Shown here piece after piece: positions 34,131 through 48,124 of a stretch of DNA of 64,000 nucleotides (the first letter of the stretch is position 1; each line of letters opens with the position of its first letter). Under the pieces are notes generated by a model. It worked only from the letters and a program-made list of their open reading frames with translations. It was not told the DNA's origin and made no database searches. Source of the DNA: Pseudobdellovibrio exovorus JSS. Its GTDB lineage: Bacteria > Bdellovibrionota > Bdellovibrionia > Bdellovibrionales > Bdellovibrionaceae. Location: positions 1 through 64,000 of the forward strand of contig NC_020813.1 in the NCBI RefSeq assembly GCF_000348725.1. The letters run 5' to 3'. Position numbers and translations under genes: made by a program.

Positions 34131-34213
34131 ACAAATTATAGATTGGCTCGAACGTGGGTGATATTTTTGGTGACGGGTTCGTCCGTGTCAGACAGAAATC
34201 AGGGCAGACTATT

Positions 34214-35014
34214 ATGACAAATGTATTCTTATACGTAGATTTTCGCGAGTTTTTAAGGGACGAGCTGCAAAGACGTTCTTTGCGTAACTCAAAGTACTCT
34301 TTACGTGCCTTTGCTCGTGATATTGGAATGAGTATTTCCCGCCTATCTGAAACACTTTCGTCCACGGCGGGGATTTCGATGTCTACGGGGCAGCTTATTG
34401 CCCAACGTCTGAAGATGTCAGATGTGGAAAAAGAATACTTCTTAAATTTGATTATGGCTAAGCACGGGCGCACGCCAGAGGTCCGCAAGAAAGCTCAGCG
34501 CCGTATAAAGCAATACAAAGCCCGACGTATTTTTATTCAACTACGCGAAAACCATAAGGAATTACTTTCGAAGTGGTATTATTTGCCGCTGATTGAGTTA
34601 TTGGGAATGCGGTGCGAACTCAGCTCAGCTGAGATATCTAAAATTCTGGATATTTCCCAAGAAGAGGTTGTCGCGGCGTCGCTGTTCTTGGCTGAAAAAG
34701 GCCAGATCGTACGTAATGAAAATGGAGTTTGGCGTAAGGCGAATATCTTTCAAAAAATTGAAAGCTCTACCCCTGCCACAGCGATTCGTCAGTTTCATCG
34801 TGACGTTCTAAAAAGGGCCGCAGCCGCCATAGAGGCGCAACCTATTGAAAAGAGGAAGTATTTATCCAGCTACTTTACGATCAGAAAAGAAAACATCGCG
34901 GAAGCAAGGCAGGATATAGAGCGTTTTAATCAGTGGTTTTTGAAGAAATATGTCACTGAAAAAAATGCAGACTCAGTCTATGTTTTTGCTATACAACTGT
35001 TTGGCTTAGAGTAA
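34214..35014 (+). CDS. TIGR02147 (DUF4423-like) family probable transcriptional regulator
   Basis: A 266-residue protein that begins MTNVFLYVDFREFLRDEL, the hallmark start of TIGR02147 proteins (YxDYRxFLxD), followed by YSLRAFARDIGMSISRLSETL as an HTH-like unit, an ISMSTGQLIAQRLKMSDVEKEYF segment and a C-terminal winged-helix-like half (SSAEISKILDISQEEV). The family is rich in Bdellovibrio and Fibrobacter; its function is not established. ATG 34214 has AGGGCAG before it. The next gene follows after 9 bases. Confidence 0.78.
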   Translation: MTNVFLYVDFREFLRDELQRRSLRNSKYSLRAFARDIGMSISRLSETLSSTAGISMSTGQLIAQRLKMSDVEKEYFLNLIMAKHGRTPEVRKKAQRRIKQYKARRIFIQLRENHKELLSKWYYLPLIELLGMRCELSSAEISKILDISQEEVVAASLFLAEKGQIVRNENGVWRKANIFQKIESSTPATAIRQFHRDVLKRAAAAIEAQPIEKRKYLSSYFTIRKENIAEARQDIERFNQWFLKKYVTEKNADSVYVFAIQLFGLE

Positions 35015-35023
35015 TTTTGTGGT

Positions 35024-35749
35024 ATGTCTGGGGTCAGAGTGAAGATTTTAATTTTGAGCCTTTTATCTGTATTTAGTATGTCAGTTGCTGCTCGTGGAAA
35101 CAGTGGCGGCAGCGGAGCGACCACTGTCGGTGACGGCGGACATGTCGTTGTTTGTTATGACAACAGCCAATCTAAAAAAGAAGTTCAATTATTAGATCTT
35201 TTTGAAATGGAAGCTTTGGGCTACCCGACAACATTTGCATTGGGGAACGCACAGGTTCCACTGGCGAATAAGGTGTGGATGGGAATGACTCGTCTTCAAA
35301 GTCACTTGGGCTTAAGCAATGCCGAGGTAGACGAAATGGTCTACGCGGCCGATCGGTTTATGCGGTTTCCTTACGATCCATGGGAAACAGGGATGAGATC
35401 TTTTTTCGGTTATTTTCTACAGGCAAAGCCAGTTGAAGTTAGAAGAAGCGTCTTTGACGAAATGGAGCGTCGAGGTTGCCGGCTTGAAGTGGCCGTGATC
35501 CGTCCTGACTTAGATGCCGAGCGTGCTAGTACCGAGAACTATAAATCTATATGTAGTCGTAGCTTCGCAGGCTTTCACTATTGTTTTTTAATGAATACAG
35601 ATCTTATCCGAAAGATGGATAAGGACCAAAAAGCCTGTTTGATCATCCATGAAGTCCTAAGATTCTTACCTAAGGAAAAAAAGATTCAGAGTGAGCGAGC
35701 TTTACGACGCCACACGTATTACGCCTGCACGGGCCAATTGGCTGTATAA
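35024..35749 (+). CDS. Secreted GATTVGDGGH-family protein, copy 1
   Basis: A 241-residue exported protein with a signal peptide (cleavage near VAA-RG) and then SGATTVGDGGHVVVCYD. It is paralogous to the protein at 36340: shared features are LLDLFEMEALG, FPYDPWE, a C-terminal cysteine pair and KACLIIHEVLRFLPKEKK. The HExxR stretch resembles a degenerate zincin motif, but the third ligand is missing, so protease activity is doubtful. It probably shares a transcript with the TIGR02147 gene. Confidence 0.75.
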   Translation: MSGVRVKILILSLLSVFSMSVAARGNSGGSGATTVGDGGHVVVCYDNSQSKKEVQLLDLFEMEALGYPTTFALGNAQVPLANKVWMGMTRLQSHLGLSNAEVDEMVYAADRFMRFPYDPWETGMRSFFGYFLQAKPVEVRRSVFDEMERRGCRLEVAVIRPDLDAERASTENYKSICSRSFAGFHYCFLMNTDLIRKMDKDQKACLIIHEVLRFLPKEKKIQSERALRRHTYYACTGQLAV

Positions 35750-35871: not shown

Positions 35872-36324
35872 ATGATAAACAGACGAAGTCCATTTTTCAT
35901 CTCGGCAATTATTTTTATGCTATTTATTAGCACGAATAGCTTCGCAATTGAAACTAGGGTCGCTAGTGAAAAAGAAAAATTAGCGAAGGAATATCTGAAT
36001 ATCATGGGATTTGAAAACGAATCGCGAGAATCTTATGAGTCGCTACAGATGCGCATAACGAAAAGCAATCCGGCGTCAGGTGAAAAAATGAAGGCACCCG
36101 AGTTGACGGCCCGATACATTCAACAACTAGATCAAGCTTTGGTAAAAACAGTTACAGATGTCTTTTCTGAAGACGAGTTAAGGAAAACAGTGGCCCTTTT
36201 AAAAACCTCTTATGGAAAAACATTTGCAGAAGGTCATCGTAAATTCATGAAGAAATACATTGAAAATGTGAATGTCGTTATGGGCGAAATTTATAAAAAA
36301 GGTTTGGCTGGTAATCACGAATAG
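35872..36324 (+). CDS. Small exported DUF2059-like protein
   Basis: The 150-residue protein has a signal peptide (cleavage after SFA) and a helical mature part with LAKEYLNIMGF and VFSEDELRKTVALLKTSYGKTF, reminiscent of the DUF2059 family of secreted helical proteins. The next gene begins 16 bases later, so both are one unit. A role inside this locus is unknown. Confidence 0.68.
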   Translation: MINRRSPFFISAIIFMLFISTNSFAIETRVASEKEKLAKEYLNIMGFENESRESYESLQMRITKSNPASGEKMKAPELTARYIQQLDQALVKTVTDVFSEDELRKTVALLKTSYGKTFAEGHRKFMKKYIENVNVVMGEIYKKGLAGNHE

Positions 36325-36339
36325 TTTTAAGGGATTAAA

Positions 36340-37047
36340 ATGAAAAGTATAAATTTGATGTTGGCCTTGATGTTGGGCATGGCCTTTTCTTTTTCGGCTT
36401 GGGCCGAAGAAGGAGCCACCACCGTAGGTGATGGCGGACATGTTGTGATTTGTAAAACCCCAGAGGGATGGTCTGCTGGGCGATTATTAGATTTATTTGA
36501 AGCAGAGGTCTTGGGGAAATCTGTGATTTTTGATTTAGGAAGTGAAGAGCTGAGCATAATAGACAAAGTGAGCTTAGGACTGTCACGGGCGCAAGAAACC
36601 CTTAACTTGAAAAGCGGCGAAATAAACTCAATGCTGTCCGTAGCTGAAAGATTTTTAAAGTTTCCCTATGATCCGTGGAAAAGAGCTAAAACGGAAAATG
36701 GCGGCGCCGTTTATGCCATTAAAGCAAAAGATCCGTTAGTCAGTCGACAAGTCTATTACGAGCTAGAGCGCCGCAACTGTTACGTTGATACAGTTGTGAT
36801 TCATCCAGACTTCAGCGATAGAAGATCGCAACAAACTAAAACTTACGAGAATATCTGCCTGGCAAATGTAATTGGTCTTCGCCAATGTTTTTTAACAAAC
36901 ACACGACATTTAAGAACAATGAGCTCAGATGAAAAAGCCTGTTTAGTGATACATGAAACTTTGCGGTTTTTACCTCAGTCAAAGAGCTTTAAAAAAGATT
37001 CAGATTTACGTCGCATGACGTATCAAATTTGTACAGGTCAGATTTGA
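36340..37047 (+). CDS. Secreted GATTVGDGGH-family protein, copy 2
   Basis: The 235-residue protein has a signal peptide (cleavage after AWA) and is a paralogue of the protein at 35024: GATTVGDGGHVVICKTPEG, LLDLFEAEVLG, KFPYDPWKR and EKACLVIHETLRFLPQSK are shared, as are the cysteine positions. Overall similarity looks moderate. The GG-rich start followed by xVVxC is common among small secreted proteins of Bdellovibrio, as far as I know; the function is unknown. Confidence 0.75.
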   Translation: MKSINLMLALMLGMAFSFSAWAEEGATTVGDGGHVVICKTPEGWSAGRLLDLFEAEVLGKSVIFDLGSEELSIIDKVSLGLSRAQETLNLKSGEINSMLSVAERFLKFPYDPWKRAKTENGGAVYAIKAKDPLVSRQVYYELERRNCYVDTVVIHPDFSDRRSQQTKTYENICLANVIGLRQCFLTNTRHLRTMSSDEKACLVIHETLRFLPQSKSFKKDSDLRRMTYQICTGQI

Positions 37048-37100: not shown

Positions 37101-37145
37101 ATGATAGCATTTTTGCATCAGGGGGTTGTCTGTGTTTGTATCTGA
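37101..37145 (+). CDS. Possible 14-codon leader ORF overlapping PP-loop gene 1
   Basis: An ATG with a good AGAGGA site opens MIAFLHQGVVCVCI and ends at TGA 37143-37145, inside the start of the larger gene in another frame. The AGGGGG site of the larger gene lies within it. It could couple or modulate translation, or be chance. Confidence 0.3.
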   Translation: MIAFLHQGVVCVCI

Positions 37146-38265
37146 AGAACGTACGCTGAATGGCGAACGTATACATTATATTGAGGTGGCAGAGGCAAGA
37201 GGGCGTTTAAGCACGCCGTTACAGCATGCCGTTGAGGCCGCATTGAAAATTCAACAGCAAGCCGAAATAGCCCGATTGCCGATAAAGCTTTTTCTGAGCG
37301 GCGGAATTGATTCAGAAGCCATGGCCCGCGCTTTCTTAGCTGCCCGTGTTCCCTTTACTGCGGTGATCGCTCGTTACAATCAAGATATGAATTTCCATGA
37401 TTACGAAACGGCAATTCCCTTCTGCGAGCAATTCGGCATTAAGATCGAGTTTATCGACATTGATGTGTATCAGTTTTTAGAAAAAGAAGAGCATCTGGCC
37501 TATGGACATGAGCTGGGGTGCCGTTCACCGCAGCTTGCTGTGTATATGCATATATTAGATCAGGTGGACGGGTTTCCTGTTTTGGCGGGGAATCCGATTT
37601 TTCCGATTCTTAATGGCGGAGCAGAACAGATCAAACAGGGAATACAAACGGGCCGATTGCTACTTGAGCGTGTGATGGGTCTTTCAGATCAAACGCAAGC
37701 CTCTCTGCTGCGCTATTTTGAAAAACGTCAACGCCGAGGTGAGCCGTTCTTTTTTCAATCGTCTTCTGCGCTGATAATGTCATTCCTAAAACTACAGAGC
37801 ACCATTCAAGAGATTGTGCGCGAAGAAAAAACATACACCTATCAAATGAAGTGCCGCGCTTATCGTGATGGTGGTTTTGATGTAGAGCCACGAGCAGACA
37901 AATACACAGGTTTTGAAAAGTATCGTGAAGAGTACGACAAAAGATTAAATACACAGTATGGAAAAGGATTTGATAGAAAGTTCCGTGAACCGCTCGAAAA
38001 GATGAACCCACTTCTGACTGAAAAAACACAGCTCCCAGTTCCCAGCGAAGTCATAGAACTTATTTTTGCGGAAACCATCCGTATGACAAGACCAAATGAA
38101 CTCAACAGACGAAGGGCCTTGTTACAGATGATGATGATTTCTGTCGGTGTACTGTCGCCACTTCCCGCGTGGGCTCTGTCGTGTTGTTGTGATTATGCGA
38201 ATAACCTCGGCTGTATCATCACGAGTCCGGCTGGCTGTAAAGCCCATTTAGCTACATGTTATTAA
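37132..38265 (+). CDS. PP-loop ATPase (asparagine-synthetase-like) with C-terminal Tat-like signal and six-cysteine tail, copy 1
   Basis: The 377-residue protein has a PP-loop SGGIDS at 56-61, as in asparagine synthetase and other adenylating N-type ATP pyrophosphatases, without a glutaminase domain. Residues 75-310 include HELGCRSPQLAVYM and GFPVLAGNPIFPI. The C-terminus is unexpected: NRRRALLQ at 325-332, a hydrophobic run ending PAWA, then 29 residues with cysteines at 351, 352, 353, 361, 369 and 376. GTG 37132 follows AGGGGG; TTG 37126 is an alternative. The next gene is its paralogue. Confidence 0.8.
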   Translation: MFVSEERTLNGERIHYIEVAEARGRLSTPLQHAVEAALKIQQQAEIARLPIKLFLSGGIDSEAMARAFLAARVPFTAVIARYNQDMNFHDYETAIPFCEQFGIKIEFIDIDVYQFLEKEEHLAYGHELGCRSPQLAVYMHILDQVDGFPVLAGNPIFPILNGGAEQIKQGIQTGRLLLERVMGLSDQTQASLLRYFEKRQRRGEPFFFQSSSALIMSFLKLQSTIQEIVREEKTYTYQMKCRAYRDGGFDVEPRADKYTGFEKYREEYDKRLNTQYGKGFDRKFREPLEKMNPLLTEKTQLPVPSEVIELIFAETIRMTRPNELNRRRALLQMMMISVGVLSPLPAWALSCCCDYANNLGCIITSPAGCKAHLATCY

Positions 38266-38323
38266 CGGCTCAAAATTAAACGCGAAAGGAAAACATAAAG
38301 ATAGCTGAATTTTAATCAAAAAC

Positions 38324-38339
38324 CCGAACGCGACCGAAC
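38324..38339 (+). promoter_or_regulatory. CCGAAC direct repeat upstream of PP-loop gene 2
   Basis: CCGAAC at 38324-38329 and 38334-38339 repeat perfectly with 10-bp period, 88 bases before the start at 38427. Confidence 0.68.
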
Positions 38340-38426
38340 GCTTTAGCGGTGGCCTTGGTTTAAAAGAAAATAAAAACAGAGATAATGTGGGAACTGCTTT
38401 ACGAACATTTAGCATTGGAGTTCCCT

Positions 38427-39581
38427 ATGGTTTCCTTTCAAGCAAAAACTGCGAAAGAATCTTTATTATCTGAAAGCCGGATATTAAACGGAGAAAAAAT
38501 TCATTCGATTGAAGTTGCAAAAGTTTTTGCAGATCTAAGCTCACCCATAGAGCACGCGATGACCAAGGCGAAAGAAATTGCTCGAACAGCATGGGCTAAT
38601 AATTTAGAAATTAAACTATTCCTCAGTGGTGGTATTGATTCCGAGGCGATGGCGCGAGCTTTTTTAGCAGCAGGTATTCCTTTTGTCGCGGTGATTGGTC
38701 GCTACAACCAGAATATGAATGAACATGACTACGTCACGGCGATATCGTTCTGCGATCAATTCCATATTCCTATGCAGTTTCTAGATGTGGATGTGTATCA
38801 GTTTCTAGAAGATGAGGGTCATTTGGCCTATGGACACGAACTAGGATGTCGTTCACCCCAGCTTGCTGTGTACATGTATATGTTAGATCAAATCGAAGGT
38901 TTTCCGGTCTTAGCGGGCAATCCTATATTTCCTATTTTGAAAAATTCGGGAAGTGAGCTTAGAAAAGAACTCTCTACTGGAAGCTTTGAAATGGAGCGTG
39001 TTGTGGGCCTTTCAGATCAGACACAGGCTGTGCTTTTTCGTTATTTTGAAAAACGTCAACGTCTAGGTGTTCCTTTTTTCTTTCAATCCTGTGCTGAGTT
39101 GATGATGTCGTTTTTAAATTTAGAAAGTACAATCGAAGCTATGACTAGTGGTCGAAAGAATTATAGCTATGAAATGAAGTGTCGCGCTTATCGTGATGGT
39201 GGTTTTGATGTAGAGCCACGAGCAGACAAATACACAGGCTTTGAAAAGTATCGTGAAGAGTACGATAAAAGATTAAACACACAGTATGGAAAAGGATTTG
39301 ATCAAAAATTTCGTCAGCCATTAGAAATGTTAAATCCACTTCTGGCTGAAAAGATATATCTACCTTTACCTGCTCAGGTGACAGAAAAACTTTTTAGAAA
39401 ACTTTCATCTTTATTTAAATCGGATGCGAACATGAGCCGTCGAGGAATCTTGGCTGGAGTGGCCGCCGCTGCTTTTGGATTATTAATCCCGCTTCCGGCA
39501 AATGCATTGATGTGGTGTTGCTGTTCGGATGGGAACTGTTTTTCAACAACGCCGAAAATGTGCAAACAAATGTGCCTTTAA
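38427..39581 (+). CDS. PP-loop ATPase (asparagine-synthetase-like) with C-terminal Tat-like signal and six-cysteine tail, copy 2
   Basis: A 384-residue paralogue of the preceding gene. PP-loop SGGIDS is at 67-72 and HELGCRSPQLAVYM and GNPIFPI are kept. The C-terminus holds a clear twin-arginine signal, SRRGILAG at 337-344, hydrophobic run, PANA cleavage-type site, then 24 residues with cysteines at 364, 365, 366, 371, 379 and 383. TTGGAG precedes ATG 38427; ATG 38385 would add 14 residues. A 120-bp block encoding YRDGGFDVEPRADKY is nearly identical in DNA between the two copies. Confidence 0.8.
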   Translation: MVSFQAKTAKESLLSESRILNGEKIHSIEVAKVFADLSSPIEHAMTKAKEIARTAWANNLEIKLFLSGGIDSEAMARAFLAAGIPFVAVIGRYNQNMNEHDYVTAISFCDQFHIPMQFLDVDVYQFLEDEGHLAYGHELGCRSPQLAVYMYMLDQIEGFPVLAGNPIFPILKNSGSELRKELSTGSFEMERVVGLSDQTQAVLFRYFEKRQRLGVPFFFQSCAELMMSFLNLESTIEAMTSGRKNYSYEMKCRAYRDGGFDVEPRADKYTGFEKYREEYDKRLNTQYGKGFDQKFRQPLEMLNPLLAEKIYLPLPAQVTEKLFRKLSSLFKSDANMSRRGILAGVAAAAFGLLIPLPANALMWCCCSDGNCFSTTPKMCKQMCL

Positions 39582-40939: not shown

Positions 40940-42721
40940 CTAACAACCACTTGGCAAGTGTGCTGGCCACCATTCTGGGCTATTGCCACAACCACAGAAA
41001 ATACTTGGCGTTGTGGGTGCTGGACTTGACCATGTATTCCCACAGCAACGACGAGTGCCACTCGTGCAACCACTGCAACTTGTCGCTCCGTGAGCAGCCG
41101 CACACGCGGTACCGCCATTAGCTGCCGGAGTCGTCACAGTAAATGTTTTTAAACCAGAGGCATCACAACCACTCCACGAGCCAACACAATTCACTGGCGC
41201 TGGGGTTGATGGTCCACCACCACCGCCAGTTGCGGCGACACAGCCCGGTCCACCAACCCAAACACAGCCATTCGGAGTACAACCACCATAAGGAACTCCC
41301 GATGCCGACATACATGCGGCATAAGAAGCTGAGCCTGCGCCATGCTGTCCACTTCCGCTGTAAGGATAACTGCAAGACCAAGAGCCACAGTAACACGCGC
41401 AATTGCAAGGCATGGTCGTTCCCTCAGGGACAGAGCAGGCAGCTCCGCCATTCGCAGCTGGCGTTGTTACAACATATGTTGAGTTTCCAGAACTTGTTAG
41501 ACATGGCGTCCACGCGCCGACACAATCCACAGGAGCGCCACAAGACTGAGGATTACAGCTTTGTGATTGAGTCTGTCCATTTGTCGCCGGACAGGCTGTT
41601 CCACCATTGGCGGCCGGAGTCGTAACAGTGTAAGTACGAGTCTGAGTTCCGCCACCACAACTGGCAGAACAAGAACTCCATGCACTCCAATCTCCGGCAC
41701 AGTTGACCGGAGTTGATGGTGGAGCACAGGCCGCTGTGTTACACGTGCGAGTTTCACCATCAACGTGAGGGCATGCGGCTCCCCACTGATTTGCAGGAAC
41801 ATCAACAGTGTAAGTTTGAGTTCCTCCACCGCACATCACAGAGCAGGCACCCCAGTTTCCAGAGCAATTTTGAGTACAAGTCGGATTGGTGTAGCTTCCA
41901 CTCAGCGAAGCCGTGTTGTTAACGACACTGCAAACTCTTGTTTCTTGTTGGCACCGACTTCCGGTTGGCACAGAAGGTGTCGCATAAAAAGTGTAAGCAG
42001 CCGAGTGGCTTAAGTTGATTCCATTTTGATCACATGTCACCACATTGAGGTCTGTTAAAGAAAGTACGCGTCGACTGATGGTGACATCATAAGAGCCAAC
42101 TTTTGTGTCACCAGCTCTCGCATTAATAAAGTTTTTCATCAGATGATTGTCAGAGGGATTGAAAACCATTTTAGCATTGATCGTTAGTGTAAGACCACTT
42201 GTTGAGGCGGCCTCATTCACATACCAATTTATGATGTAACCAATAGGACAGTTGTCGTTTCCAGCTCCGGTTGGTGAAAAACCAGAACACTTTGTTCCCT
42301 TTTCCGTGAAACCAGCACTACTTGTTGTGCGGCCATCGTAAAAAACCTGACCACCGCCTGTTCCTGAATTGTAAAGTACAATACGATCAAGTGACGGAGA
42401 ATAAGCTGAGGCGACGAGCGATGTTGCACATGTCGTGCGATTTCGCAGGCAGGCCATATTGGCATTAACGGAGGCGTTGATGGTATTTTGAATGGCTTGA
42501 TTCTGTTGCAGAATTTCAGAAAAGCTATTTTTAAGCTTTAAGAGCTCATCACGTAGCTGAACCTTTTTTTGTTCTTGAGTTGAAAAGCTCATCATATTGA
42601 TAACAGCCAAGCTGACAACGGCACCAAGAGCCACGGCGACCATAAGTTGAATCAAGCTGACACCACGATTATTAATAAAGAATAGCTTCTTTATATTCCA
42701 CCACCTCTGTACGTTCCGCAT
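40940..42721 (-). CDS. Type IV pilin-like protein with thrombospondin type-1-like repeats, copy A
   Basis: The 593-residue protein starts with a prepilin leader (cleavage after G20) and hydrophobic helix VSLIQLMVAVALGAVVSLAV. Position +5 of the mature protein is Gln, not the usual Glu. A pilin-like globular domain to about 280 is followed by Cys/Trp-rich thrombospondin-type repeats at about 286-332 (WGACSVMCGGGTQTYTV), 341-394, 400-440 and 512-550, and a Cys-rich end. It is probably a surface-exposed minor pilin with an adhesive region. Its base composition is visibly richer in G+C than its neighbours. Confidence 0.82.
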   Translation of the reverse strand: MRNVQRWWNIKKLFFINNRGVSLIQLMVAVALGAVVSLAVINMMSFSTQEQKKVQLRDELLKLKNSFSEILQQNQAIQNTINASVNANMACLRNRTTCATSLVASAYSPSLDRIVLYNSGTGGGQVFYDGRTTSSAGFTEKGTKCSGFSPTGAGNDNCPIGYIINWYVNEAASTSGLTLTINAKMVFNPSDNHLMKNFINARAGDTKVGSYDVTISRRVLSLTDLNVVTCDQNGINLSHSAAYTFYATPSVPTGSRCQQETRVCSVVNNTASLSGSYTNPTCTQNCSGNWGACSVMCGGGTQTYTVDVPANQWGAACPHVDGETRTCNTAACAPPSTPVNCAGDWSAWSSCSASCGGGTQTRTYTVTTPAANGGTACPATNGQTQSQSCNPQSCGAPVDCVGAWTPCLTSSGNSTYVVTTPAANGGAACSVPEGTTMPCNCACYCGSWSCSYPYSGSGQHGAGSASYAACMSASGVPYGGCTPNGCVWVGGPGCVAATGGGGGPSTPAPVNCVGSWSGCDASGLKTFTVTTPAANGGTACAAAHGATSCSGCTSGTRRCCGNTWSSPAPTTPSIFCGCGNSPEWWPAHLPSGC

Positions 42722-43519: not shown

Positions 43520-43594
43520 ACAAAAAATCAGCCCTATAATTTTATTATTGTTTAATGACGAGAATTGCTTGAGCCAATAACAAAGGAATATTGC

Positions 43595-45043
43595 GTGTCG
43601 CGACTGAGATTAAACACTAAGGGGATAGGTCTTTTACAATTATTACTGGCTGTGGGATTGGGAAGCATCGTGAGCTTAGCATTTGTTAACGCTCTTCAAG
43701 TTTCTGATCACGAGCAAAGAAAACTACAACTTAGAAACGAGTTGTTAGCTATAAAAAATCATTTCGCCAGCACGTTACATCAGGATCAAACTTTTCTTAA
43801 TACGATCGCCGCACTCGAAAATACAAATATGCAGTGTCTACGTGATCGCACCGTTTGTGATGCGGGATTTGTTGGAAGTGAGTACTCGCCATTGCAAGAA
43901 CGACTCGTTCTTTATAATCAGTCCCCGAGTCCGGGTCAGATTTTTTACGACGGCCGCGCAACAAGCAGTACAGGGTTCACAACAAAAGGAGCCACGTGTA
44001 CAGGGTTTTCTGCCACTGGCGCAGGAAACAGTGACTGCCCGATTGGTTTTATCACAACATGGTACTTAAGCGATGTCGGCTCTTATAAAGGAGTCGCTCT
44101 TACACTGAATGCAAAGATGGTTTTTAACCCTGCAGACGATCATCCTTTGAAGCGATTTTTTTATGCGCAGCACGTGGACACCGTTCTGGGTTCTTATGAC
44201 ATTGCGGTTACTAAGCGCGTGAAGTCTCTTGTAAATAATGAAGTTCTTCACTGCGAAGAAAATGGCGTGCAATTAAATCATGGTGCCGGAAGAGTTTTCT
44301 ATCAGACAGCAGGTGTTCCTGTTGGAAGTCGTTGTCAGCAAGAAACTCGTCTTTGTACGATTGTGAACAATGTGCCGGAGTTGTCAGGAACATTTAATCA
44401 GCCGAGCTGTGCACAAGCTTGTTCGGGCGAGTGGAGTGCGTGCAGTGCTCCCTGTGGTGGCGGAACACAGACCTTTACACAGATCGTGGAAGCCAATGAG
44501 TTTGGTCCCGCCTGTGCTCACTCTAACGGAGAACAACGTGCGTGTAACACAATGGCCTGTGGTAACAACTGCATGGGCGATTGGGGCGCTTGTACCGGAG
44601 GCGTTCAGCGATACAACGTCACGCTTCCAGCAGGAATTGGAGGTGATAGTTGTCCCTACGCTGACGGACAAACTCGCAGTTGCACCAGCGAAGGAAAATG
44701 GGTGAAAACAGGAGTCGCGAACAACGTGCATGGACTTGGTTACAACTCTCTTTGTCATCCTTATAAAAGTCTTTTGCCCCTTTGCTTGATGCAGGTGATT
44801 TATCACATAGATGGAAGTCAGTATTGCGAAAGCTATGTATTGAACGACTTGAATGGACTCCTTAATCCAGTCTTAAATACATTAAGTACCTGTGGAAACT
44901 TTTCCCCAGATACAGCGGTTTGTAATCCGGGACAGAGTATGACAATGGTTTCTGCCTTCTATGTTTTAAAGGGAGGAAATTTATTAACGAATTTATTCGA
45001 TTTACAGAATGTGACGACAAGTTATTCGTGTGTGGCAAAATAA
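43595..45043 (+). CDS. Type IV pilin-like protein with thrombospondin type-1-like repeats, copy B
   Basis: A 482-residue member of the same family. Leader ends NTKG, followed by IGLLQLLLAVGLGSIVSLAF, again with Gln at +5. The pilin-like domain and the SRCQQETRLCTIVNNVPELSG linker are shared with copies A and D, and two thrombospondin-like units follow (WSACSAPCGGGTQTFTQ, MGDWGACTGGVQRYNVTLP). The last 115 residues differ from the other copies and hold several cysteines. GTG 43595 has AAAGGA 7 bases before it. Confidence 0.8.
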   Translation: MSRLRLNTKGIGLLQLLLAVGLGSIVSLAFVNALQVSDHEQRKLQLRNELLAIKNHFASTLHQDQTFLNTIAALENTNMQCLRDRTVCDAGFVGSEYSPLQERLVLYNQSPSPGQIFYDGRATSSTGFTTKGATCTGFSATGAGNSDCPIGFITTWYLSDVGSYKGVALTLNAKMVFNPADDHPLKRFFYAQHVDTVLGSYDIAVTKRVKSLVNNEVLHCEENGVQLNHGAGRVFYQTAGVPVGSRCQQETRLCTIVNNVPELSGTFNQPSCAQACSGEWSACSAPCGGGTQTFTQIVEANEFGPACAHSNGEQRACNTMACGNNCMGDWGACTGGVQRYNVTLPAGIGGDSCPYADGQTRSCTSEGKWVKTGVANNVHGLGYNSLCHPYKSLLPLCLMQVIYHIDGSQYCESYVLNDLNGLLNPVLNTLSTCGNFSPDTAVCNPGQSMTMVSAFYVLKGGNLLTNLFDLQNVTTSYSCVAK

Positions 45044-45203: not shown

Positions 45204-45816
45204 ATGAGCAATAAGGGTGTCGGAATAATACAGCTACTCGTCGCTGTGGGTTTAGGTAGTGTCGTCAGTATGGGCGTCATCAGCATGATGCATTTTTCAA
45301 ATCAAGAGCAGAAAAAAATTCATCTGCGCTCAGAGCTTGTCGCTATTCAAACGCGTTTTGCCGAAGTTCTTCACAACGACAAGACCTTTCTTAATACAGT
45401 TGCTTCTTCCGCAAATCCTAACATGGCCTGCTTGCGCAATCGTACGGCCTGTGCGGCTAGTTATGTGTCATCCGGCTACACACCAACACTTGATCGTATC
45501 GCGATTGTTCATCCAGCATCATCAGATGGAAGAATTTTTTATGATGGACGCTCTACAAGCACAGCAGGATTTACAGAAAAAGGAGCCGACTCCCGCAGCA
45601 AATGGAGGTACAGCTTGTGCTGTACCTGCGGGAACAACAGCAACTTGCACGTGTAGTTGCTACTGCAGCTCTTGGGGTTGTAATTATCCGTATAATGGGA
45701 GTGGCAAACACAGCGCCTCTACGAAAGCAGCCTGTATGGCGGCTAATGGACAGTCTTCTGGCGGTTGTACAACAAATGGATGTGTATGGGTCGGAGGGCC
45801 AGGCAACTGTCAGTAG
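45204..45816 (+). pseudogene. Deleted, frameshifted pilin/thrombospondin-repeat gene, copy C
   Basis: The frame from ATG 45204 (AAGGA site) reads a pilin-like N-terminus with VGIIQLLVAVGLGSVVSM and is identical in plan to copies A, B and D as far as FTEKGA near 45588, where it runs into unrelated codons and stops at 45654-45656. In another frame the bases from 45587 to 45816 encode TPAANGGTACAVPAGTT and CSCYCSSWGCNYPYNGSG, homologous to the Cys-rich part of copy A. A deletion of about 290 codons out of frame explains both. It may be inactive or a cassette for recombination. Confidence 0.78.
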
Positions 45817-46425: not shown

Positions 46426-47964
46426 CTAATGGCAGCTTGGGTTCGTGTAGCAATTTGAGCCGTCAGACCCCGGCCCGCAGGGATAACAGTCCCAATATTG
46501 AGTACCCATGCCAGAAGGTCCACCGCTACCTCGAATTGGACCGCTTTGATAATGTGATGGAAATGGACACTGACCTACATAAGCAGCGCCCCAACTGCAT
46601 GTTTCACTGTCTCCTATATGGGCCATGCCTGTGCAGGCGGTCATTGGGAAGCATGGCACCTCTGGGCACGCGTGTGTGTTACAAGCTTGGGATTCCGTTT
46701 GTCCATTTGTCGCAGAACAAGCGGCTCCACCATTCGCCGCTGGAGTTGTAATGGTGAAGGTGCGCGCTTGCGTCCCGCTACCACAAGGTTTTGAACATGT
46801 GCTCCACGCTCCCCATGAACCGACACAGTCGGTGCTTGGAGTCGCTGCGCAACTTTGAGTTGCCCCATTCGCGTGTGTACAGGCCGTTCCCCCGCCACTG
46901 GCTGGAGTCGTGACGATAAATGTTTGTGATCCCGCTGTACATGGTCCCCATGCACCAACGCAATTAACAGGCACTGCTGGCGGAGCACAAGCTGCCGTAT
47001 TACAGGTGCGAGTTTCACCAGCAGCGTGAGGGCATGCGGCTCCCCACTGATTTGCAGGAACATCAACAGTGTAAGTTTGTGTTCCACCACCACACGCCAC
47101 GGAACAAGGCCCCCATGCGCCAGAACAGTTTTGCACGCAGGTCGAATTGGTGTAGTTACCACTTAATGACGGAGTGTTATTCACCACGCTGCAAACGCGC
47201 GTTTCCTGTTGGCAACGGCTTCCCAAAGGAACACTGCTGGTCGCATAAAAAACATAACCAGCCGAGTGATGTAGTGTCACTCCCCCTTCAGAGCAGGACA
47301 CGACAGACAAATTACTTAAAGATAAAACACGCTTACTGACGATGACATCATATTGCCCTACGCGTGTATCAGAACCAGTTGCATTCACAAAAGTTTTTAA
47401 AGGATGTGTATCCGAAGGATTAAAAACGAGCTTTGCGGTTATCGTCAGCGTAAGACCTTGATCAGAACTCGTCTGATTGACATACCAATTGGTGATATAA
47501 CCAATAGGACAGGCGTCGTTGCCCGCTCCTGCTGCGGAAAACCCAGTGCACTTCGTTCCCTTTTCCGTGAAGCCCGCACTACTCGAAGCGCGGCCATCAT
47601 AAAAAATCTGACCACCATTAGGGCCGGAATTGTAAATAGCAATCCGATCAAGAGTTGGAGAATAACCTGAAGCCACTAGCGACGCGGCACAAGCTGTACG
47701 ATTGCGTAAACACGCCATATTGGTATTGGCTGTGGCCGCGATAGTATTGAGGATACTTTGATCTTGATGAAGAACTTCGGAAAAACTATTTTTCAATTTT
47801 AGCAAGTCATTGCGGAACTGAGCTCTTTTCTGCTCTTGATTTGAAAAACCCATCATATTGATAACAGCCACACTGACGATTGTGGCTAAGCCCACACCCA
47901 CCATCAGTTGAATCAAACTGAAACCAGCAGAGTTTAAAGAAAGTCTTTCTGTTACGTTCCGCAT
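46426..47964 (-). CDS. Type IV pilin-like protein with thrombospondin type-1-like repeats, copy D
   Basis: A 512-residue member starting MRNV, exactly like copy A. The leader ends NSAG, followed by FSLIQLMVGVGLATIVSVAV, with Gln at +5. Pilin-like domain, then thrombospondin-type repeats (WGPCSVACGGGTQTYTV, WGPCTAGSQTFIVTT, WGAWSTCSKPCGSGTQARTF) and a C-terminal Cys-rich segment unlike copy A. A stem-loop covers the start codon and the presumed ribosome-binding site. It shares a 55-bp identical segment with copy A. Confidence 0.82.
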   Translation of the reverse strand: MRNVTERLSLNSAGFSLIQLMVGVGLATIVSVAVINMMGFSNQEQKRAQFRNDLLKLKNSFSEVLHQDQSILNTIAATANTNMACLRNRTACAASLVASGYSPTLDRIAIYNSGPNGGQIFYDGRASSSAGFTEKGTKCTGFSAAGAGNDACPIGYITNWYVNQTSSDQGLTLTITAKLVFNPSDTHPLKTFVNATGSDTRVGQYDVIVSKRVLSLSNLSVVSCSEGGVTLHHSAGYVFYATSSVPLGSRCQQETRVCSVVNNTPSLSGNYTNSTCVQNCSGAWGPCSVACGGGTQTYTVDVPANQWGAACPHAAGETRTCNTAACAPPAVPVNCVGAWGPCTAGSQTFIVTTPASGGGTACTHANGATQSCAATPSTDCVGSWGAWSTCSKPCGSGTQARTFTITTPAANGGAACSATNGQTESQACNTHACPEVPCFPMTACTGMAHIGDSETCSWGAAYVGQCPFPSHYQSGPIRGSGGPSGMGTQYWDCYPCGPGSDGSNCYTNPSCH

Positions 47965-47985
47965 AAGTCTTATCTTAAGCGGAAC
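47956..47985 (-). promoter_or_regulatory. Stem-loop over the start codon of pilin-like copy D
   Basis: On the transcript GTTCCGC (47985-47979) pairs with GCGGAAC (47962-47956), and TAAG pairs with CTTA inside, around ATAAGA. The AUG and AAG-rich binding site lie in the structure, which could lower translation. Confidence 0.5.
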
Positions 47986-48124
47986 AACCCTGAAGGCCAA
48001 GAGCTTCAAGGCTTTCAGCGCCAGAGTCTCAAATCAACACAGTGAAAAAACAAACTAATGTGTTTGCTGCTATTTGAAAAACTTAAGATGACGTAAGCTC
48101 TTTATAATTTCAATTTTCTACGGC

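Follow-up and report, generated by a model that had tools for sequence, protein, structure and literature searches.

PP-loop enzymes with a Tat-like signal and a six-cysteine tail at the C-terminus in Pseudobdellovibrio exovorus: a candidate RiPP-like fusion system

Two adjacent genes of Pseudobdellovibrio exovorus JSS each encode a PP-loop enzyme that runs on into a Tat-like signal and a short six-cysteine tail, and sequence comparison suggests that this tail is, in all likelihood, a precursor peptide exported by Tat, with the PP-loop enzyme as its partner. This reading of the tail is favored because stand-alone genes for such peptides occur in relatives, because their leader co-occurs with the closest enzyme clade, and because fused and stand-alone forms share a DUF2059-like follower. 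A functional link between enzyme and peptide appears to be well supported, and the evidence inclines us slightly to regard the enzyme as the modifier of the peptide. The system is a RiPP-like candidate, a borosin-like fusion with a Tat leader, and it falls outside every family tested.

The fused genes and their C-terminal segments

The window, by which we mean the whole stretch of 64,000 nucleotides that was analysed, begins at dnaA of a Bdellovibrio-type chromosome of 2.66 Mb. Two ORFs, 37126–38265 and 38385–39581, are open, uninterrupted, adjacent and in frame, and a good ribosome-binding site precedes both of the likely starts within them, GTG 37132 and ATG 38427. A first-pass annotation, made from the DNA sequence alone, had described paired SGGIDS paralogues at this site; both were found intact (63% identical), and its gene starts agree with ours. 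The features are as follows.

37132..38265, + strand: fused gene 1, encoding a PP-loop enzyme, linker, Tat-like signal and six-cysteine tail (likely GTG start, AGGGGG upstream)
37297..37314, + strand: PP-loop SGGIDS of gene 1 (SGG-DS is invariant in all family members)
37900..37917, + strand: KYTGFE motif of gene 1 (Lys, Gly and Glu invariant; candidate catalytic lysine)
38104..38175, + strand: C-terminal Tat-like signal of gene 1 (NRRRALLQ ... PAWA)
38176..38262, + strand: predicted released peptide 1, 29 residues with six Cys (LSCCCDYANNLGCIITSPAGCKAHLATCY)
38427..39581, + strand: fused gene 2, a paralogue with 63% identity to gene 1 (likely ATG start, GGAG upstream)
38625..38642, + strand: PP-loop SGGIDS of gene 2
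39228..39245, + strand: KYTGFE motif of gene 2
39435..39506, + strand: C-terminal Tat signal, as predicted, of gene 2 (SRRGILAG ... PANA)
39507..39578, + strand: predicted released peptide 2, 24 residues with six Cys (LMWCCCSDGNCFSTTPKMCKQMCL)

Each fused protein consists of a PP-loop ATP-pyrophosphatase of ~320 residues, a flexible and variable linker of ~30 residues, an RR pair, a hydrophobic run, an AxA site and the tail, such that the last ~75 residues comprise the linker, the Tat signal and the short six-cysteine segment. With a slash placed after the AxA site, gene 1 ends in NRRRALLQ...PAWA/LSCCC... (29-residue tail) and gene 2 in SRRGILAG...PANA/LMWCCC... (24-residue tail). The succession of RR segment, hydrophobic run, AxA and short tail that had been read at PAWA and PANA in the first pass is present in both ORFs, and the cysteine order reported with it, CCC-C-C-C in which Cys4 and Cys5 are seven residues apart, is the same in both tails, which are 43% identical to one another (E 8e-4). 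When a 400-kb sample of the same genome was taken together with the window as a background (464 kb, 518 ORFs), the combination of RR, hydrophobic run and cysteine-rich C-terminal tail was observed in these two ORFs alone, and no small Tat-signal cysteine-rich ORF was found in it.

The traits of a Tat substrate were all found, namely an RR pair, a moderately hydrophobic run, an AxA site and Tat machinery in the genome, which encodes TatC; NRRRALLQ of gene 1 is a weak Tat motif. We look on Tat export of the fused tails as likely, as far as can be judged from the primary structure. A lipoprotein reading was rejected by eye; the stretch before the first Cys misfits a lipobox in gene 2 and is a poor fit in gene 1. 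It is also conceivable that translation of the tail begins on its own at an in-frame codon inside the gene, with the fused tail as a by-product of overlapping genes, and a methionine or GTG codon does lie 1–8 residues ahead of each RR (ATG 39432 in gene 2, in gene 1 an ATG that precedes NRRR, and a GTG in the third fused gene described below). However, ATG 39432 is without a good ribosome-binding site, and no stop codon follows the enzyme, so that the fused form would still be made; separate translation is thus considered very improbable.

The enzyme domain

Scans of the fused proteins (P0001 and P0002, the latter from gene 2) against Pfam, NCBIfam, PHROGs and PADLOC yielded weak matches to PP-loop families and nothing stronger. 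QueC (PF06508) scored 15.9 and 15.8 bits against a gathering cut-off of 22, hence the proteins do not qualify as QueC members, and PF00733 scored 15.0 bits for P0001 against a cut-off of 21 and was unlisted for P0002. A profile comparison with the PDB, for which an alignment of 25 sequences was used, gave weak matches to the PP-loops of NAD synthetase and thiouridylase. The domain containing SGGIDS occupies residues 24–345 of P0002, and an AlphaFold2 model of this protein has pLDDT >90 over most of residues 30–340 and <50 over 365–398. The model predicted for the third fused protein presents the same picture, with residues 356–435 at <50. Since pLDDT is <50 over the tail in both models, the tail is predicted to be disordered and to lie outside the well-folded core, not packed into the enzyme; burial in the enzyme core, a matter which the first-pass annotation had left to structure prediction, is seen neither in P0002 nor in this homologue.

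The core carries a PP-loop synthetase fold with SGGxDS, its best structural matches having Z scores of 14.1–13.4. The closest folds are those of beta-lactam synthetase (1mc1, Z 14.1), E. coli asparagine synthetase B (13.6) and carbapenam synthetase (12.6), followed by weaker matches to LarE and NAD synthetases (Z 10–11). Among 13 bacterial members of the family the invariant residues are S81, G82, G83, D85 and S86, together with R279-x-x-K282-x-x-G285-x-E287. K282, within the RxxKxTGFE motif, has a plausible spacing for a catalytic lysine; an attempt to match it to the catalytic lysine of asparagine synthetases by profile alignment failed, with hhalign covering the PP-loop half alone. The asparagine-synthetase-like enzyme proposed in the first pass therefore stands as regards the fold, which is nearest the asparagine-/beta-lactam-synthetase group, whereas in sequence the alignment is limited to the PP-loop half. 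Because the C-terminal catalytic half is unalignable by sequence to asparagine synthetase, the reaction type is one suggested by the fold.

This fold, shared with the asparagine synthetase B, beta-lactam synthetase and lasso cyclase group, would permit ATP-driven amide bond formation. The fused proteins differ from that group in that a glutaminase domain is absent, PF00733 falls below its cut-off and the second half cannot be aligned. No lasso-peptide leader peptidase or RRE was seen beside the fused genes, which together with the PF00733 scores places them outside the lasso peptides as tested.

Relatives and stand-alone peptides

A scan of 85,000 species returned matches to the PP-loop family in Bdellovibrionota only, the family being present in 24 of the 369 genomes of the phylum; viral contigs also contain members, one of them fused to a GNAT domain, and searches of phage records and plasmids gave no enzyme match. 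The genome of P. exovorus harbors five further paralogues of ~305–325 residues, all without a tail, which had gone unnoticed in the first reading. A third fused gene was identified in Bdellovibrio sp. LF-bin-439 (G010), with a product 50% identical and a tail of the form ...FAQA/ASCACC...C...C...C. Because this assembly is independent, a frameshift or assembly error as the origin of the fused form was rejected. In a maximum-likelihood tree the three fused genes make up one clade (100/100) that adjoins a clade of tail-less enzymes, and the pair in the window is a later duplication within the fused clade; the fusion is shown to have arisen once, with intact fusions in two species. Between the two genes of the window there is a near-identical DNA tract (37860–38000 vs. 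39190–39320, the RADKYTGFEKYREEYDKR region, P0002 residues ~258–320) with diverged flanks, a sign of recent gene conversion that was likewise missed at first pass.

Whether these tails are functionless extensions, arisen by chance or in decay, bears on the same comparison. The linker and signal do diverge fast between the two paralogues (dN 0.77–0.83), but the number of Cys residues, the RR pair, the hydrophobicity and the AxA site have been kept across three fused genes in two species despite the diverged tails, and none of the 518 background ORFs offered a comparable case; a chance or decaying extension is scarcely credible to us.

Besides the fused form, relatives encode a stand-alone Tat-signal cysteine peptide beside the same type of enzyme, which supports the tail as a putative separate functional unit. 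In P. exovorus a gene for MQSRRQFLKGASRIISTLAVAQVGVYAIGAAFKNLDGSMRAYGLKMCDGHSGCLYCC... adjoins the tail-less paralogue at 108 kb (locus L029), and a Tat-signal protein with four C-terminal cysteines adjoins that at 94 kb (L030); in G049, of a different family of the same order, a Tat-Cys peptide gene lies upstream of the PP-loop gene (L037). The L029 and L037 peptides share a leader that extends beyond the hydrophobic run, and the conserved leader of the stand-alone type reads SRRxFL...GSAFKxLDGSxVAGA/K, followed by a variable core with 4–8 cysteines. Profile searches retrieved further stand-alone peptides in G010 (contigs C95, C132 and C176, with contig-end pieces on C63 and C30). Among the four closest sequences the leaders are 48–67% and the cores 20–38% identical, a conserved leader with a variable core being the typical pattern of precursor peptides; a fifth sequence (L229) has a more diverged leader. 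The leader/core pattern of RiPPs is thus found in the stand-alone relatives, and the fused tails share with them only the signal architecture and the cysteines; the alignable features are the RR pair, the hydrophobic run, the AxA site and the Cys residues, and nothing further. Comparison of the peptide cores with known structures gave chance-level matches only, and the L029 peptide had no match in plasmids. In L029 (9309–9800) the Tat-signal six-cysteine peptide is followed by Peptidase_S74 (tailspike chaperone), an unusual place for this self-cleaving domain.

Strong matches to the leader were confined to three of the 369 genomes of the phylum (G000, G010 and G049), all of them among the four in which the closest PP-loop clade is represented (hypergeometric 5e-7, uncorrected for relatedness). 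As to whether the tail is fused or separate in relatives, a question raised at first pass, both forms were found: it is fused in G010 and separate beside tail-less paralogues. Homologues without the tail, which the first-pass annotation had held to count against its reading, do exist; they do not refute it, as some of them have the peptide as a neighboring gene. The stand-alone genes bear equally on the other choice it had offered, in which the tail anchors the enzyme at the membrane. The hydrophobic run would in that case be inserted by Tat or YidC, and the Cys tail would only hold or sense in the periplasm. Such a topology, with the RR cytoplasmic and a short tail in the periplasm, would suit the sequences, and the hydrophobic run is strong in both (mean Kyte-Doolittle 1.9–2.4). 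Yet genes of the same architecture stand alone with no enzyme to anchor, the AxA lies directly before the cysteines, and the tail-less paralogues need no anchor; for the first of these reasons above all, we now grade anchoring as quite unlikely.

The neighborhood of the fused genes was compared with that of the stand-alone peptides, and four genes lie upstream of the pair.

34154..35014, + strand: TIGR02147/DUF4423 regulator-like gene (NCBIfam E 1e-30; Pfam DUF4423; homologues at L221, L222, L220 and L029)
35024..35749, + strand: secreted 'GDGGHVV' protein (phmmer E 9e-5 to L222_2347 of a G010 peptide locus; no Pfam match above cut-off)
35872..36324, + strand: small secreted protein in the position of the DUF2059-like protein of peptide cassettes (a comparison of position alone)
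36340..37047, + strand: second secreted 'GDGGHVV' protein, like 35024–35749 by eye, possibly of the same unit (position only)

Regulator-like genes of the TIGR02147/DUF4423 type thus occur in the window, close to the L029 enzyme and in the vicinity of the G010 peptide loci. Small secreted DUF2059-like genes lie 3' of the stand-alone peptide genes in G010, and the gene that follows the fused enzyme gene of that genome is homologous to one of them (phmmer E 8e-8) and matches that of a third locus, L229 (HMM E 5e-10). Given this shared DUF2059-like/regulator cassette, the fused tail appears to occupy the place of the stand-alone precursor.

Around half the loci of the bacterial family encode a Tat-signal protein within five genes, vs. 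~1 convincing case per 518 background ORFs, the ratio being approximate as the hydrophobicity threshold was set slightly lower in the neighborhood scan. At L035, L036, L031 and L047 neither a Tat nor a peptide gene was found nearby, and there are phage members without one, so that the PP-loop family is not tied to this peptide alone; G010, for its part, has stand-alone peptide genes that adjoin no PP-loop gene. Some members neighbor a YcaO and SagC-like pair, accompanied by a candidate precursor that ends in ...GSCCVGSILSSSGSAATGGSCT, and others have a nitroreductase (SagB-like by sequence), AspH, PhyH, HTTM, radical SAM or GNAT as neighbors. Tailoring-type neighbors of this kind, which may serve peptides or small molecules, lend support, not proof, to PP-loop enzymes acting on peptides.

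The strongest competitor sees in the tail a disulfide-rich miniprotein that is secreted and stays unmodified, the fusion merely coupling expression or tethering an inactive peptide until signal peptidase acts, and the substrate of the enzyme lying elsewhere. Six cysteines at variable spacing would fit three disulfides, one stand-alone peptide carries the C-terminal Peptidase_S74, an autoprocessing/folding device, and there are PP-loop relatives in phages and at other loci without a peptide. The repeated pairing of enzyme clade and peptide, by fusion, adjacency and co-occurrence, is however hard to explain without a functional interaction, and the wider PP-loop family is encoded near peptide-modifying enzymes. 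We consider an unmodified miniprotein unlikely, if deserving of serious consideration.

Several loci of the family have features of their own. A Bdellovibrionota contig (L064, 60–5776; L164, 2836–6066) encodes YcaO, a SagC-like protein, AspH, a Tat-signal protein, a PP-loop enzyme and, as a candidate precursor, a product of 78 residues that ends in ...SCCVGSILSSSGSAATGGSCT, and is likely a thiazole/oxazole peptide cluster with a PP-loop gene. At L039 (11304–11993) a 229-residue product with a Gly/Ser/Cys-rich N-terminal part and a Hint domain adjoins a Tat-signal protein, with a PP-loop gene near, and is possibly a source of a peptide freed by self-cleavage. A Tat-signal protein of ~330 residues, for which Pfam gave no confident match, is encoded close to PP-loop genes at several loci (L033, 9242–10513; L040, 2779–3771; L042, 9191–10463; L163, 9236–10345), beside an ORF of 58–81 residues in L033 and L042 and PhyH dioxygenases in L040 and L042; these loci are a second, unexplained type of cassette. 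At L030 (6173–9469) the PP-loop gene stands between the Tat four-cysteine peptide gene and two genes for products of 134 and 520 residues with no confident match to a known family, possibly a second peptide operon.

Proposed mechanism and known systems

The fused genes are, on balance, probably a self-carrying peptide system in which the enzyme modifies the tail, Tat threads it and the peptide is released. The N-terminal 320 residues would function as an ATP-consuming PP-loop enzyme of the asparagine-/beta-lactam-synthetase type, without the glutaminase domain. The tethered tail would enter the cytoplasmic active site, either its own or that of a dimer partner, where the enzyme might adenylate a carboxyl or amide group and thereby create a new bond in the peptide, as an intramolecular amide or a conjugation. 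TatBC would then bind the internal RR and the tail would be threaded while the enzyme remains inside; cleavage by signal peptidase after the AxA would free a cysteine-rich peptide of 24–29 residues. We infer Tat export, cleavage and modification, together with the chemistry and any toxic, metal-binding or signaling role.

Precedents are known from other systems. In borosins of the OphMA type the enzyme is N-terminal and the core C-terminal within one polypeptide, and a single enzyme family includes fused as well as split forms (PMC11395268); the present proteins have the same order and the same coexistence of forms, but they contain a PP-loop ATPase in place of a methyltransferase, a Tat signal between enzyme and core, and a Cys-rich core. 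The borosin N-methyltransferase domain is absent, Pfam and NCBIfam giving weak PP-loop-type matches alone. Bufferins and other MNIO RiPPs have an export signal peptide as leader of a Cys-rich precursor, which is described as rare among bacterial RiPPs (PMC12452194). That likeness extends to the present peptides, whereas theirs are Sec signals with MNIO and DUF2063-type partners and here the signals are of Tat type with a PP-loop enzyme; no MNIO or DUF2063-type partner was found in the four genes upstream of the window pair or in the part of the stand-alone cassettes inspected. Some PP-loop enzymes of the QueC family, including CBASS Cap9 and QatC, join a nucleobase covalently to a protein partner (PMC11996544, PMC13279940), and conjugation to a protein by a QueC-like enzyme is thus a precedent (PMC11996544). 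The weak QueC matches seen here cover the PP-loop half alone and lie below cut-off, and no deazaguanine genes or defense partners were identified at the fused genes. An internal Tat signal that translocates a C-terminal domain is known from the Streptomyces Rieske protein (PMC13186574).

A literature search on PP-loop enzymes with Tat signals and on Bdellovibrio with RiPPs found no account of this system. It is tentatively suggested that a new class of ribosomal peptides is represented, in which a PP-loop ligase is followed by an internal Tat signal and its own Cys-rich substrate, which it modifies in the cytoplasm before Tat threads the tail out for release; relatives would have a split form, made up of Tat leader peptides and a PP-loop enzyme acting in trans. 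If true, the system would join a PP-loop enzyme–substrate fusion, a Tat signal as leader and an internal Tat signal releasing a short peptide, of which no joint description was found in the literature, and a predatory bacterium would thereby yield a peptide product that is defined and open to testing, as well as a natural case for how Tat deals with a tail that follows a folded domain in the cytoplasm. Two search handles would be gained, namely the leader SRRxFL...GSAFKxLDGSxVAGA and the PP-loop family with RxxKxTGFE.

Downstream of the fused genes, the window encodes three prepilin-like proteins with thrombospondin-type repeats (WGxCSxxCGGGTQT) at 40940–42721 (−), 43565–45043 and 46426–48009 (−), along with an apparently broken copy of such a gene at 45204–45816. 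The occurrence of these genes in both orientations would be consistent with an expanding, recombining family.
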